64,000 nucleotides of DNA, taken from NCBI RefSeq assembly GCF_001426485.1, contig NZ_LMET01000001.1, positions 2,906,354 through 2,970,353 on the forward strand, given 5' to 3'. The position numbers and the translations under genes were made by a program. Shown in pieces: positions 22,216 through 29,480 of this stretch; within the stretch, counting starts at the first letter, position 1; each line of letters begins with the position of its first letter. The stretch is from Aeromicrobium sp. Root472D3. GTDB lineage: Bacteria > Actinomycetota > Actinomycetes > Propionibacteriales > Nocardioidaceae. The notes below the pieces were generated by a model. It had not been told where the DNA came from and did not search any database. It saw only the letters and a list, made by a program, of their open reading frames with translations.

Positions 22216-22276
22216 GGCCCCAGCATGATCCACGATTGGCATCGCGATCCATAGCCAGTTGTGGAACAGTGGCCTC
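22216..22276. promoter_or_regulatory. MocR / YczE divergent promoter region
   Basis: The 61-bp gap carries -10-like boxes for both sides (CATGCT minus, AACAGT plus at 22265-22270), each six bases from its start codon. Between them are ATTGGC and GCCAGT in inverted orientation around the palindrome ATCGCGAT, a plausible binding site for the MocR regulator that would control both genes at once. Confidence 0.55.
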
Positions 22277-23731
22277 ATGGCTCCCATCGTCTCCGCCCGC
22301 CGGCTGGCCGAGCTGCTCGGCGGCCTCGACCGCGTTGGCCCCGCCTACCGCGAGATCGCCGACCGCCTGCGACTCCTCATCGTCGACGGCCGCGTCGCCG
22401 ACGGCACGCGCTTGCCGTCCGAGCGCGAGCTGGCCGTCGCGATGGACGTCAGCCGCACCACGACGACCCGCGTCTACGCTGAGCTGCGGGACGCCGGGCT
22501 GGTCCGGTCGCGGCAGGGGTCGGGCAGCGTCGTGCGGCTGCCGCTCGAGAGTTCGACCGCCAGCAGCCTGATCGTCGACGCCGACGACGCCGACACCATC
22601 GCGCTGACGTACGCGGCGCCGATCGGTCCACCGGGCCTGGCCCGGGCGTTCGAGACCGCGGCTGCCAAGCTGCCGGGCCTGCTGTCGACGACGGGCTACC
22701 TCCCGGACGGCCTGCCGGTGCTGCGCGAGGTGCTGGCCCAGCGGTACACCGACGGCGGCCTGCCCACCGATCCCGACCAGATCGTCGTCACCAGCGGCGC
22801 GATGGGCGCGATCTCGTTGCTGGCACGGACGCTCGTCAGCCCCGGGCAGCGCGTCGTCGTCGAGGGCACCGGCTACCCGCACGCGCACGAGTCGTTCGCG
22901 GCGGCGGGGGCGCGGCTGTCGCCCCTGCCGGTCGACGGGTCCCCGTGGGACACCGAGGCGCTGACGTCCGTCCTGGCGGGGTCGCCCCATCGCGCGGCGT
23001 ACCTCGTCCCCGACTTCCACAACCCGACCGCCGCGATCATGAGCGACGCCGAGCGCACGACGTGGGCCCGCGAGCTGCGGCGGCACGACGTCGTGCCGGT
23101 CGTCGACGAGTCGCTGCGCGAGCTCAACCTCGACGGGATCGACCTGCCGCCCGTGTTCGCGACCTACGACCCCCGCGCGATGCTGATCGGCTCGTCGTCC
23201 AAGTCGTACTGGGGCGGGCTGCGGGTCGGGTGGATCCGGGCGCCCCGCGACGCCGTCATGCCCCTCGTGCAGGCGCGCATGATGGACGATCTCGGCTCGT
23301 CGGCGTTCGACCAGCTCGTGCTGTCCGAGCTGCTGGTCGAGGGCGGACAGACGGCCGCGGCGGGTCGGGCGCGCCTGCGGGCGGCCCGTGACCACCTGCT
23401 GGCCGAGCTCGCGCGCGAGCTGCCCGACGTCCAGGCACCCTGCCCCGCCGGAGGGCTGAGCCTGTGGGTGACGCTCCCCCACCGCATGTCGTCGCGACTC
23501 ACGACGGCCGCGGCGCGGCACGGCCTGCTGCTGACACCCGGCCCCCGGTTCTTCACGCGTCCGGGAACGGCGGGCGAGCGGCACCTGCGGCTGCCGTACA
23601 ACCAGTCGCACGAGACCATGACCGAGGCGGTCGCGCGGTTGCGGTCGGCCTACGACGAGGTCACCGGCGCCCGTCCTGCCGACACGTCGTCCCCGTCAGC
23701 GCCCGCCAAGACCCTCGAGATGATCGCCTGA
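22277..23731 (+). CDS. MocR-family (GntR/aminotransferase) transcriptional regulator
   Basis: 484-aa fusion of a GntR winged helix (about residues 15-80; ELAVAMDVSRTTTTRVYAELRDAG) and a fold-type I aminotransferase domain with the PLP lysine in LIGSSSKSYWGGLRVGWI. In this family the aminotransferase part senses PLP or an amino acid rather than catalysing metabolism. The divergent YczE-like gene is the classic partner, so regulation of that gene is the likely job. ATG 22277 is supported by AACAGT six bases upstream and by family alignment. Confidence 0.9.
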   Translation: MAPIVSARRLAELLGGLDRVGPAYREIADRLRLLIVDGRVADGTRLPSERELAVAMDVSRTTTTRVYAELRDAGLVRSRQGSGSVVRLPLESSTASSLIVDADDADTIALTYAAPIGPPGLARAFETAAAKLPGLLSTTGYLPDGLPVLREVLAQRYTDGGLPTDPDQIVVTSGAMGAISLLARTLVSPGQRVVVEGTGYPHAHESFAAAGARLSPLPVDGSPWDTEALTSVLAGSPHRAAYLVPDFHNPTAAIMSDAERTTWARELRRHDVVPVVDESLRELNLDGIDLPPVFATYDPRAMLIGSSSKSYWGGLRVGWIRAPRDAVMPLVQARMMDDLGSSAFDQLVLSELLVEGGQTAAAGRARLRAARDHLLAELARELPDVQAPCPAGGLSLWVTLPHRMSSRLTTAAARHGLLLTPGPRFFTRPGTAGERHLRLPYNQSHETMTEAVARLRSAYDEVTGARPADTSSPSAPAKTLEMIA

Positions 23732-23741
23732 CCCCGTCCGC

Positions 23742-23825
23742 CGACGAGTCACCGACGCCCCGCGACGAGTCGCTCGTGCGGGGCAGGAGCGACTCGTCGG
23801 CGGGCCTGCGTGACTCGTCAGCGAC
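23742..23825. repeat. Intergenic array of four 21-bp units (two forward, two inverted)
   Basis: Units occupy 23742-23762, 23763-23783, 23784-23804 and 23805-23825. The first two carry CGACGAGTC; the last two carry the complement GACTCGTC. Units two and three form a perfect 13-bp stem, CGACGAGTCGCTC (23763-23775) with GAGCGACTCGTCG (23787-23799), loop 11. It lies between converging genes; the last unit covers the stop codon of the esterase gene. It shares unit length and core with the eight-unit array at 28211-28378. A transcription-ending role is possible. Confidence 0.8.
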
Positions 23826-25035
23826 GGGGGGCGGGGTCGATGACGATCATCTCGGTGTCGTCGGGCGTGCCGGGACGTCGCGCGGAGTTGCCCGGGTAGT
23901 TGTTGTCGTTGGCGATCATCAGGCGTCCGCCCGCCAGCGGGACGAGGGTCTCGACCGACTGGAAGCCGAACGAGAACTGGCGTCCCGTGCCCCAGCCGCC
24001 GCCTGTGCTGATGCCTCGGCGGTCGGAGATGTCGAGCAGGTCGACGACGAGCGACTTGGACGTCGTCCCACGCGTGCCGAGCCGCACCGCGTAGACCTTC
24101 TTGGTGACGGCCGCGGCCCCGTCGGCGTTGTCGCGCTCGAGCACCAGCAGGTCGCCCCGCGAGGTGATCTGCGCGTCGGCGACCAGGTTCGCGTCGGCGT
24201 CGACCCGGTAGTCCCACGTCCGTCCGGTGTAGCGGCCGGTGCGCGTGTCGAGCTCGGCGACCACGCGCCGCCGCTTGTCGGCGTCCCCCACGAGCGCGTT
24301 CTCGAGGATCGGGTAGAGGTGGCGCCCGTCCTTCGACTGCGCCATCGCCTCGAAGCCACCGCTCTGCTGCGTCCGGGGCTGCTCGCTGCCGAGCAACGGG
24401 TTCTGCGGCGACTTGCCGAGCGGCGAGGCGACGGGGGCCGACAGCACGCGACCCCTCGCGTCGACGTGGACGATGAACGGACCGAACTCGTCGCCGATCC
24501 AGAACGTGCCGTCCCTGCCGCGCTGCACCGACTCGATGTCGAGGTCGTCGCCGGTCAGCAGACGGTCGGGGGTCGACTCGTTGACGATCGGGAATCCGAT
24601 GCGGTGCTGCGGGTCGGACAACGAGATGTGGCGCAGCACCGTGACCTCGCCCGAGCCGCCACCGGCGGTCTTCCAGTGCGGCCGCACCAGGTAGAGCCGC
24701 AGCAGGAAGTCGGCGGAGTTGCCCTTCGCGCCGAAGCCGTTGTCGGGCTGGGCCCAGAACGTCCCGTCGCCGTTGTCGATCGCGGCGGAGAACCCCGGCA
24801 CGACCTGGCCGGGGAACGGGCCCTGTCGCCCGTTGGCCGGGGTGGCGAGCGCGCCGGACGGCGGGCCGGGCGCCTGGTAATCGGCCGACAGCGTGGCGCG
24901 GGCCAGGAGCCTCGCCTGACCGCTGCCGTCGTGGTGGTGGTCGTGGCGGCCGGACGCCGCGGCCGGCGAGACGCTCGCCGCGGCGAGCGCGACGACGAGA
25001 GCGCCGACGAGACGGGGACGTGAAGGACGTGGCAT
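23818..25035 (-). CDS. Secreted esterase-like phytase-family protein
   Basis: 405-aa protein with an Ala-rich signal peptide (VGALVVALAAASVSPAAASG) and no lipobox Cys, so it is probably released outside the cell. Blocks such as FSAAIDNGDGTFWAQPDNGFG, RDGTFWIGDEFGPFIVHVDARG, GFEAMAQSKDGRHLYPILEN and DLLVLERDN match the esterase-like activity of phytase family (PF13449), a beta-propeller fold. A His/Asp-rich segment (GRHDHHHDGSG) follows the signal. The substrate is unknown. ATG 25035 has GAGGAGC upstream. The stop lies inside the fourth 21-bp repeat unit. Confidence 0.85.
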   Translation of the reverse strand: MPRPSRPRLVGALVVALAAASVSPAAASGRHDHHHDGSGQARLLARATLSADYQAPGPPSGALATPANGRQGPFPGQVVPGFSAAIDNGDGTFWAQPDNGFGAKGNSADFLLRLYLVRPHWKTAGGGSGEVTVLRHISLSDPQHRIGFPIVNESTPDRLLTGDDLDIESVQRGRDGTFWIGDEFGPFIVHVDARGRVLSAPVASPLGKSPQNPLLGSEQPRTQQSGGFEAMAQSKDGRHLYPILENALVGDADKRRRVVAELDTRTGRYTGRTWDYRVDADANLVADAQITSRGDLLVLERDNADGAAAVTKKVYAVRLGTRGTTSKSLVVDLLDISDRRGISTGGGWGTGRQFSFGFQSVETLVPLAGGRLMIANDNNYPGNSARRPGTPDDTEMIVIDPAPRR

Positions 25036-25160
25036 GGTGCTGCTCCTCTGGTTCGGTGGACCGGACCCCCCGGGACACCTCACCAACCAACCCGACCGGG
25101 ACGACGACCGGACGACGCCCACGCGAACACTTCGCGCCCGACGTGGCCGCCGTCCTCACG

Positions 25161-26629: not shown

Positions 26630-27273
26630 CGGCCCGCCCTTTCCACCGCGGCGCGCAGCGCGCCGTCGACCGCGCGCCTCAGGTCCGCGGCGGCAGACGT
26701 CGGGTCGGCGGCGGCGCAGATCGCGCTCACCACGGCGACCCCGCTCGCGCCCGCCTCGACGACCAGGCCGGCGGTGGTGCTGTCGATGCCGCCGATGCCG
26801 ACGACCGGCACCCGGCCGCCAGCCCGCTCGACCACGGCGCGGACGCCGTCGAGACCGAACGGCTCCGACGCGTCCGGCTTCGTGGCCGTGGCCCACACGG
26901 GGCTGACCGCGACGTAGTCGGACGCCGACATCTCGACGTCGTCGTCGAGCTGGGCCAGGTCGTTGACCGACCACCCGATGACCGCGTCGGGGCCGAGGAC
27001 CGCTCGGGCGGTGCTCGGTGCGACGTCGTCGACCCCCACGTGCAGGCCGTCGGCCCACCGGGCGGCCTCGAGGTCGTCGTTGGCGATGACCGCGACGTGG
27101 GCGGGCAGCGCGTCCCGCAGGCGCCGGACCAGGTCGATCCTCTCGTCGGGCGCCGCGTCCTTGTGACGTACCTGGACGCTCGTCACTCCCCCGGCGACGG
27201 CCCGCGACACGACGTCGAGGAGGTCGTCGGTGCGGGGGTCCGTCACGAGGTAGACCCGCAGGTCGACGCTCAT
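26626..27273 (-). CDS. thiE: Thiamine-phosphate synthase
   Basis: 215-aa TIM-barrel enzyme that joins HMP-PP and thiazole phosphate to give thiamine phosphate. It begins RVYLVTDPRTDDLLDVVSRAVAGGVTSVQVRHKDA, contains ANDDLEAARWADGLHVG and SPVWATATKPDASEPFGLDGVR, and the phosphate loop VVGIGGIDSTTAG. ATG 27273 overlaps the thiM stop by 4 bp and its own end overlaps thiD, so the operon is tightly coupled. Confidence 0.93.
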   Translation of the reverse strand: MSVDLRVYLVTDPRTDDLLDVVSRAVAGGVTSVQVRHKDAAPDERIDLVRRLRDALPAHVAVIANDDLEAARWADGLHVGVDDVAPSTARAVLGPDAVIGWSVNDLAQLDDDVEMSASDYVAVSPVWATATKPDASEPFGLDGVRAVVERAGGRVPVVGIGGIDSTTAGLVVEAGASGVAVVSAICAAADPTSAAADLRRAVDGALRAAVERAGR

Positions 27274-28094
27274 GACCGGTCGACCCGGACCGAGGAGATG
27301 CGCGCGTCGTCGAGCTGCGCCAGCTCGTCGAGCAGCGCGACCCGGAACGAACCCGGTCCGGCCGACGCCGCCCCGGCTCGATCGCCAGCCGCTGCGAGCA
27401 TCGCCATCGCGGCGACGGACGCCTCGACGGCATCGTCCTCGACGGCGCAGCACGCCGCGACCAGGGCGGTCGCCGAGCAGCCCAGCGCCGTGACCATCGG
27501 CATCCACGGGTGGCCGCCGTGCACCACGGCCCGGCGCGTCCCGTCGGTGACGACGTCCTCGACGCCCGTCACGACGACGACGGCCGACAGATCGCGCGCG
27601 AGCGCCGTCGCCGCCTCGACGGCGTCGGAGGTCGCCGCGTCGCTGTCGACCCCGCGACCACTGGTCTGCGCCGTGGCGATCGCGAGGATCTCGCTCGCGT
27701 TGCCGCGCACGACCGTCGGCCGGTGCTCGAGCAGCCCGTCGACGATCTCGCGGCGGTAGGCGGTGGCCCCGACGGCGACGGGGTCGAGCACCCACGGCGT
27801 GCCGGACTCGTGCGCGGCGCGTGCCGCCTCGGTCATCCCCTCGACCCACGACGGCGACGGCGTGCCGATGTTGACGCCGACGGCCGACGCGATGCGGGCG
27901 AACTCGCCCGACTCGTGCGGGTCGTGGACCATGGCGGGCGAGGCGCCGACGGCGTTCAGCACGTTGGCGGCGACGTCCATCGAGACGAAGTTGGTGATGT
28001 ACTGCACCAGGGGCGACCGCTCGCGCACCGCGGCGACGATCGCCGCCGTGGTGGTCGATGGCGTGCTGGTGGATGGCGTGACAGGACTACTCAT
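27270..28094 (-). CDS. thiM: Hydroxyethylthiazole kinase
   Basis: 274-aa salvage kinase for the thiazole moiety of thiamine. It shows YITNFVSMDVAANVLNAVGASPAMVHDPHE, the GVNIGT stretch, WVLDPVAVGAT and the ATP/anion site ALGCSATALVAACCAV. It is the first gene behind the TPP riboswitch; its ribosome-binding site AGGGAG is the 3' part of the aptamer. Gene content (thiM, thiD, thiE, tenA; no thiC, thiG or thiS here) indicates salvage and coupling rather than complete synthesis in this operon. Confidence 0.93.
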   Translation of the reverse strand: MSSPVTPSTSTPSTTTAAIVAAVRERSPLVQYITNFVSMDVAANVLNAVGASPAMVHDPHESGEFARIASAVGVNIGTPSPSWVEGMTEAARAAHESGTPWVLDPVAVGATAYRREIVDGLLEHRPTVVRGNASEILAIATAQTSGRGVDSDAATSDAVEAATALARDLSAVVVVTGVEDVVTDGTRRAVVHGGHPWMPMVTALGCSATALVAACCAVEDDAVEASVAAMAMLAAAGDRAGAASAGPGSFRVALLDELAQLDDARISSVRVDRS

Positions 28095-28099
28095 GACAG

Positions 28100-28172
28100 C
28101 TCCCTAGCGCCGGTGCTAACCGGATCAGGTTCGTCGGGTCTCATCTCAGCCCCTCGTGGGGCACCCCGGCCG
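28100..28172 (-). ncRNA. TPP riboswitch (THI element)
   Basis: The minus strand carries the conserved features: GGGGTGCC, CTGAGATGAGACCC, GAACCTGATCCGGTTA and GCACCGGCG, in order, ending in TAGGGAG. The last bases are also the thiM ribosome-binding site, five bases before ATG 28094. TPP binding would therefore be expected to hide that site and stop translation of the coupled operon; no terminator stem is visible after the aptamer. Confidence 0.95.
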
Positions 28173-28210
28173 TGTGCCGTCGAGCCTACACACCGCCCAC
28201 CCCCCTGCGC

Positions 28211-28378
28211 CGACGAGTCACCCACGCCCCGCGAGGAGTCACCCACGCCCCGCGGCGAGTCACCCAGACCCGGTGACGAGTCACTCAGACCGGGCGTACG
28301 CGACTGGTCGGCGGGCCTGCGCGACTCCTCGACGGGCGTACGCGACTCATCGGCGGGCGTACGTGACTCGTCGGCGGG
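28211..28378. repeat. Intergenic array of eight exact 21-bp units, four forward and four inverted
   Basis: Unit borders are 28211, 28232, 28253, 28274 (forward) and 28295, 28316, 28337, 28358 (inverted), ending at 28378 with no extra bases. Forward units share GAGTCAC; inverted units share the complement-type core GCGACT or GTGACTC with TCGGCGGG. Units differ at several bases each, so they are old copies. The whole block can fold as one long hairpin with the centre at 28294/28295. It has the same unit as the four-unit array at 23742-23825. It lies upstream of the thi operon and downstream of ilvC. Confidence 0.85.
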
Positions 28379-28397: not shown

Positions 28398-28427
28398 GGG
28401 GCGCCGCACCTGTCGGTGCGGCGCCCC
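28398..28427 (-). terminator. Strong hairpin after ilvC
   Basis: GGGGCGCCGCACC (28398-28410) pairs perfectly with GGTGCGGCGCCCC (28415-28427) across a TGTC loop, 25 bp after the ilvC stop. There is no T-tract; a stem of 13 G/C-rich pairs is typical of actinobacterial terminators. It would end the ilvBNC transcript before the repeat array. Confidence 0.75.

Positions 28428-28451: not shown

Positions 28452-29480
<1,029 letters not shown>

Follow-up and report, generated by a model that had tools for sequence, protein, structure and literature searches.

REP and REPIN sequences are short palindromic repeats that lie between genes, differ in sequence from lineage to lineage and flank the single-copy, vertically inherited gene of their enzyme (excerpts of PMC8049555 and PMC3733652). 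The dedicated enzyme described for the common REP-type repeats is the HUH transposase RAYT. REP elements are described as hairpins tagged GTAG or CGTC, and the words Actinobacteria and Nocardioides are absent from the portion of that text surveyed (PMC3733652). Other described systems share single features with the locus reported here. AbiEi, the antitoxin of type IV toxin-antitoxin systems, binds inverted repeats of its own promoter (PMC7319586, in excerpt), EDxHD homing endonucleases such as I-Bth0305I join a nuclease domain to a DNA-binding part (PMC3943268, likewise in excerpt), and MTES_1575 is described in part of PMC3710099 as a Vsr-fold REase. Borg genomes carry tandem repeats, head-to-tail and perfect, both between genes and in frame within genes, where they are linker-like (excerpt of PMC9879509).

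Here we describe an array of short repeats in a window of 64,000 nucleotides, the whole stretch of DNA that was analysed, from the 3.7-Mb genome of an Aeromicrobium (G000). With a probability of roughly 0.6, we consider this array to be a gene-less, dispersed member of a repeat family with a cognate AbiEi-like/Vsr-like nuclease, the two together making up a REPIN/RAYT-like system. The observations behind this reading are the dispersal of the repeats, the bracketing of the gene by them, the co-occurrence of gene and unit, the units specific to each paralogue, the homogenised spacers and, for the nuclease part of the protein, a predicted fold and residues that do not vary.

A head-to-head array of 21-bp units beside ilvC

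The window array consists of eight 21-bp units set head-to-head, four in forward and four in inverted orientation, and extends from outermost core to outermost core over positions 28212..28372, with no strand assigned. Its forward cores start at 28212, 28233, 28254 and 28275 and its inverted cores at 28300, 28321, 28342 and 28363, in exact 21-bp steps on either side, as expected from a preliminary description of eight units of exactly 21 bp, four forward then four inverted. That description had placed the axis at 28294/28295, without a spacer. Once all cores share one register, however, the dyad falls at 28292, and a 15-bp centre (28285..28299, unstranded), common to both sides, separates the innermost cores; the earlier axis was slightly off because forward and inverted units had been read in different phases. 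The sister array proposed at the same time is indeed related, having identical geometry with 2+2 units (23743..23819, unstranded; cores at 23743 and 23764 on the + strand and at 23789 and 23810 on the − strand; 15-bp centre; dyad at 23781). It lies between two convergent genes: a GntR/aminotransferase (MocR-type) gene (22259..23731, + strand; Pfam, ORF), which ends 11 bp before the array, and a phytase-like esterase gene (23818..25122, − strand; Pfam PF13449, ORF), whose stop codon touches it.

The signal of these arrays lies in their phasing, since the 10-bp core taken singly is about as frequent in the window as expected (17 matches against 16.2, with up to one mismatch). When cores with up to two mismatches each were chained in phase, the longest chain in the window was 4, compared with 1 or 2 in 20 out of 20 dinucleotide-preserving shuffles.

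The window array has the hydroxyethylthiazole kinase gene thiM (27270..28094, − strand; Pfam PF02110) and the ketol-acid reductoisomerase gene ilvC (28452..29477, − strand; Pfam KARI_N and KARI_C) as neighbours. A TPP riboswitch (28084..28178, − strand; Rfam RF00059, 68.5 bits) upstream of the kinase gene is likewise a neighbour and lies outside the element. The gene names thiM, ilvC and MocR, like livF, relA and cobO below, are labels that we take to fit the Pfam families matched. A GC-rich hairpin 3' of ilvC (28398..28427, unstranded), read from the sequence, is probably the terminator of that gene; it is missing from the terminator scan because it has no T tract. The array is separate from this hairpin, as had been stated previously.

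The repeats are dispersed and lie mostly near gene ends

The preliminary description had named a lack of other copies as a refutation, and this does not apply. Across the whole G000 genome, paired cores 21 bp apart gave 70 matches (up to three mismatches), against 1 for a reversed-pattern control. At least 20 array loci (18 fetched stretches and the two window arrays; one of the 20 is split) hold at least 107 units in G000, and at least 20 loci hold at least 132 units in the relative G030; only in-phase units were counted, so that both unit totals are lower bounds. Each unit joins a conserved core, GASGAGTCRC, to an 11-bp spacer that differs between species. Core positions 4–8 (GAGTC) are 99–100% conserved among the counted units, and the innermost inverted core of the window array (28300-28309) is altered within this otherwise nearly invariant motif.

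The number of units varies among loci, as might be expected if the arrays had arisen by chance or by local tandem slippage with no trans-acting factor. Such an origin is extremely improbable, given that about 20 unlinked loci share one unit, found in either orientation and with fixed geometry, that the search controls are at or near zero, and that the repeats are paired with a gene (see below). Slippage is therefore refuted as the sole cause, and may still set the number of units.

A predicted gene 3' end lies within 50 bp of the array at 27 of the 38 fetched loci, and on both sides at 7 of these, as judged with a crude gene caller and with L051 scored from a separate reading, L042 excluded as doubtful and L055 included though doubtful. 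The predicted RNA folds are strong on both strands (z −4.85 and −8.46), so that arrays may have a role at transcript ends given the folding of either strand. Together with the position of the sister array between convergent genes, this could be taken to mean that the arrays are long hairpins kept as terminators, perhaps bidirectional ones, or as RNA-stability elements, with the gene pairing being secondary. We think this improbable, because the window array comes after a separate ilvC hairpin, the cores show no covariation past the innermost pair, some arrays within coding linkers have a single orientation, and the fact that each gene carries the unit of its own genome would be left unexplained.

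The comparison of core pairs was made across 27 arrays, the window array entering one rank off as its innermost inverted core is without an exact GAGTC. Innermost cores were identical in 13 of the 27, against 7.4 expected (P 0.0025); their mismatch total was not significant (P 0.09), and the outer ranks showed no effect. The cruciform suggested earlier thus draws support from the identical innermost cores, but none from the mismatch total or the outer pairs. This sequence pattern would fit better with a central palindrome as the working unit than with one long stem.

Five arrays, all of them in a single orientation, lie in frame within genes (L040:2004-2076, L041:1951-2044, L054:1987-2080, L072:2044-2137 and L075:2037-2172). 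They encode ADES- or SDSS-type linkers between known domains, in an acyltransferase (L040), in a Mg-chelatase-like gene (L041 and L075; AAA/VWA by Pfam, adjoining a CobO-type gene) and in a VanW-like gene (L054 and L072). The reading frame is preserved because 21 bp correspond to seven codons. Repeats both between genes and in frame as linkers recall those of Borgs, from which the present ones differ in being a single genome-wide unit, arranged head-to-head and tied to a gene (excerpt of PMC9879509).

A gene for a predicted nuclease lies between two half-arrays

About 180 kb before the window, a gene of 305 codons' worth of protein (305 aa; G000:C1:2725915-2726829, − strand) is bracketed by two half-arrays, one forward and one inverted, built from the window array's unit, hereafter brand 1. 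It had been missed earlier because it lies outside the window. In G000, G030 and G035 (L051, L063 and L038) the half-arrays enclose the same gene at a distance of about 1 kb from each other, and in the other three orthologues the brand-1 unit is present, by eye, on both flanks of the gene. The adjoining genes appear to be LivF-like, RelA or DUF349 genes, both in G000 and in most relatives. G030 has one further split pair, L062:1515-2000, whose forward and inverted halves are 0.3 kb apart. It encloses no AbiEi-Vsr gene and may be an array that has decayed or been invaded.

The G000 protein matches the Pfam families MTES_1575, DUF559 and AbiEi_1, all below curated cut-offs, and gave no match in an NCBIfam search. 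Residues 20-200 match the PADLOC AbiEi model (E 1.6e-14), and a second protein of the family matches PADLOC AbiEi models at E 6.9e-16. In the AlphaFold model (mean pLDDT 69.8), residues 197-298 superimpose on I-Bth0305I (3r3p; Z 11.2, rmsd 2.5 over 93 residues) and on Vsr (Z 9.3); a Foldseek search with the model returned no match at E 0.001 or better. Six residues (E200, D232, E243, D245, H250 and D259) show no variation across the set, 23 of 23 proteins having them, and would form a putative active site. Taken together, the linked protein is predicted to combine an AbiEi-like N-terminus with a Vsr/EDxHD-type nuclease C-terminus. The predicted fold and the joining of a nuclease domain to a DNA-binding part are shared with EDxHD homing endonucleases (PMC3943268, in excerpt), but the gene here is outside any intron or intein and within a putative target array that is repeated at about 20 places. 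While its N-terminal match likens the protein to AbiEi antitoxins, it differs from them in its fused nuclease domain and in having repeats on both flanks and dispersed (excerpt of PMC7319586).

The AbiEi precedent, the N-terminal match, the unit flanking the gene and the 21-bp phasing, which suits cooperative binding, are all compatible with a regulator, that is, with an AbiEi-type DNA-binding protein for which the arrays serve as operators or roadblocks at gene ends, its nuclease part being incidental or having lost its function. We regard this as unlikely, since the unit is also found on the far side of the gene and within coding linkers, and mostly near 3' ends (27/38), since the active-site-like residues are invariant in the whole set of 23 proteins, and since species-wide homogenisation would not be expected of operators. 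Under the preferred reading of a repeat family with a cognate nuclease, the earlier idea that a spacing of two helical turns suits a protein is upheld, and the candidate is the AbiEi-like/Vsr-like nuclease encoded between the half-arrays.

Gene and unit co-occur across Aeromicrobium

Orthologues at 65-73% identity were found in 6 of 49 Aeromicrobium genomes (G000, G015, G030, G012, G035 and G044). When all 49 genomes were searched for brand-1 pairs (up to one mismatch), these six and G045 gave 13 to 89 matches each, against 0 for the control, and 39 gave none. The remaining genomes, G021, G027 and G036, gave one match each, which proved to be one shared sequence with no array. In G045, whose assembly is 71% complete, arrays are present and a close gene was not found.

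A second clade comprises 17 genes whose products are 47-56% identical to the G000 protein and whose units are different. Fifteen of these genes lie beside relA, 14 within a few hundred bases and the one in G008 about 4 kb away because of an insertion; with gene positions conserved in this way, there is no evident sign of active homing. Pairs of the unit GACGCGTGGGTT were present in exactly five of the 49 genomes (G034, 10; G008, 3; G013, 14; G044, 50; G035, 52; control, 0), namely those whose gene has GACGCGTGGGTT flanks. For each brand, the co-occurrence of gene and unit had a Fisher P of about 5e-7, uncorrected for relatedness. Pairs of a further unit, GASGAGGGGGTT, occurred in G000 (7), G012 (2) and G013 (3), so that G000, having them besides brand 1, carries at least two gene-repeat brands; no gene flanked by GASGAGGGGGTT was found in G013, an assembly with 6% contamination.

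In a maximum-likelihood tree, the six brand-1 genes (support 92/97) and the five GACGCGTGGGTT genes (97/94) each group in a clade of their own. Protein and unit distances are correlated overall (Mantel r 0.37, P 0.0004), but the correlation is not significant for the subset of six (r −0.11, P 0.64) or the subset of 17 (r 0.20, P 0.064). The link between gene and repeat is well supported.

Several single loci are of note beside these counts. In G048, 19-bp tandem repeats (CGTGTGCCCACTCGTCAAA) adjoin a relative of 36% identity (L096), and unit length may accordingly vary with the protein. A carbon-nitrogen hydrolase (nitrilase-family) gene lies inside a GACGCGTGGGTT array in G035 (L141:2019-3505), as if other genes could also enter by way of arrays. 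Three GACGAGTCG-type units stand alone, in 21-bp steps, at G039:C1:466100-466151; the gene of that genome has another unit.

Arrays at shared sites carry species-specific spacers

Among the fetched G030 loci, seven sites bear arrays in both G000 and G030; an eighth pair, the sister array and L068, matched only away from the array and was excluded. At all seven sites the spacers are nearer to those of the other arrays in the same genome than to those of the orthologous array, seen from both sides, implying that the copies are being homogenised. G046 has a solo head-to-head array of its own unit at the relA-DUF349 site and carries the gene on another contig.

The site of the window array is empty in G015, where 53 bp separate the riboswitch-side match from the ilvC-side match, compared with 250 in the window, and no array is seen in the sequence. 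From coordinates alone, the same riboswitch-ilvC interval measures 40 bp in G039 and 124 in G008. The units next to ilvC in G044 are of the GACGCGTGG type, and the arrays at that place in G030 and G012 resemble the unit of G030's second gene. The special tie to the thi operon suggested by the preliminary description is thus not sustained, and a link to thiamine or branched-chain synthesis was rejected in view of the lack of an array in G015 and the other units beside ilvC elsewhere. Repeats of other kinds, tandem or palindromic, occupy the relA or ilvC gene ends at L228 (G009), L229 (G032) and L153 (G028), where these genomes lack the gene; they are possibly further brands.

Since the gene is flanked by inverted repeats, and many gene-less copies have the same ends, a classical transposon was also considered, in which the gene and its half-arrays would be insertion-sequence-like and the solo arrays MITE-like derivatives moved as units. 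Its likelihood is low. No transposase family was among the Pfam and NCBIfam matches of five family proteins (E 0.1), each genome has one close copy in a conserved place, and the ends consist of variable numbers of units. In addition, visual comparison of a single empty/occupied site pair, the ilvC site in G015 and in the window, showed no evident target-site duplication.

Comparison with REPIN/RAYT and a possible mechanism

Like REP/REPIN sequences, the repeats are short, palindromic, dispersed and lineage-specific in sequence, with one family per genome, and the enzyme gene, single-copy and largely vertically inherited, is flanked by its own repeat, the flanking unit being that of the dispersed copies for the brands tested (brand 1, GACGCGTGGGTT, Mumia and Nocardioides). 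They differ in forming n+n arrays of 21/22-bp units with an AbiEi-like/Vsr-like nuclease, in place of the tagged hairpins of REP (excerpt of PMC3733652). No RAYT partner was found: the Y1 HUH transposase domain (PF01797) was found in none of the six array-bearing genomes, in a search whose control detected it in 5 of 14 known genomes. The preliminary description knew of no named element of this type; the repeats do resemble a named one, REP/REPIN, but its enzyme was not found in the six genomes searched. No description of this gene-repeat link was found in the open-licence PMC texts searched, mostly at listing level.

We infer that the nuclease binds, cuts and so copies the repeats. Its AbiEi-type winged-helix part would bind the cores, all of them presented on the same side of the helix, and its nuclease part would nick or cut in or close to the central palindrome. 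Arrays would then spread, lengthen and become homogenised through repair templated by another array copy, and such repair could relocate or remove the gene that lies between half-arrays. In such a system the gene would ride at the axis of one array and be inherited largely vertically, and a Vsr-fold nuclease would take the part that the HUH transposase has in REPIN/RAYT. Arrays would persist where they do little harm, past gene ends and, as single-orientation units of seven codons, in protein linkers.

Related genes with flanking repeats beyond the genus

Turning to other genera, one scan of genome contigs yielded 34 loci in Aeromicrobium, Mumia, Nocardioides, Marmoricola, Quadrisphaera, Georgenia and other Nocardioidaceae, a set that overlaps the Aeromicrobium gene set in several of the same genomes. 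Each locus was tested for an inverted repeat across its two 300-bp flanks against 100 shuffles. Such repeats flank 33 of the 34 loci and 22 of the 23 Aeromicrobium genes, compared with 5 of 180 control intervals from the same loci. The exceptions are L198, from a Georgenia bin, and G008; in the latter an inserted sequence, read as a transposase gene, lies between the gene and its half-array.

Dispersed copies of the cognate repeat were found in one of two Mumia genomes and in three of four Nocardioides/Marmoricola genomes. The first Mumia genome has 92 matches of the unit flanking its gene (control 0), and the second, whose gene has another unit, has no matches of the first one's unit. The three Nocardioides genomes contain 6, 37 and 47 palindromes of the form CTGACCCGTC-N-GACGGGTCAG (control 0), and the Marmoricola bin contains none. 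This 1+1 palindrome looks like the simplest form, of which the n+n arrays would be a tandem growth.

An order-wide search for brand 1 gave some match in 54 of 391 genomes, those outside Aeromicrobium having one or two each, close to the control level; the reversed control was slightly above zero in array-rich genomes (G012, 3+3; G030, 2+2; G035, 1+0). A plasmid search gave one partial match and a phage search none.

We give even odds to a broader proposal, that of a widespread actinobacterial AbiEi-Vsr family in which each nuclease maintains its own repeat arrays. Such a family would be a second, independently evolved counterpart of REPIN/RAYT, one that relies on targeted breakage followed by recombinational copying where REPIN/RAYT relies on single-strand transposition. 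Protein and repeat would change in step, and one genome could house several such pairs. If this is true, such repeat populations have arisen more than once, proteins annotated only as AbiEi or DUF559 gain a function, and many natural protein-repeat pairs become available for studying the joint change of a DNA-binding nuclease and its target.

When paralogues at about 30% identity were tested with 400-bp flanks, 14 of 15 passed, the control figure of 5/180 belonging to the other sets. The inverted repeats at these distant AbiEi/DUF559 paralogues (L113-L116 and L097-L107) are of quite different sequence.
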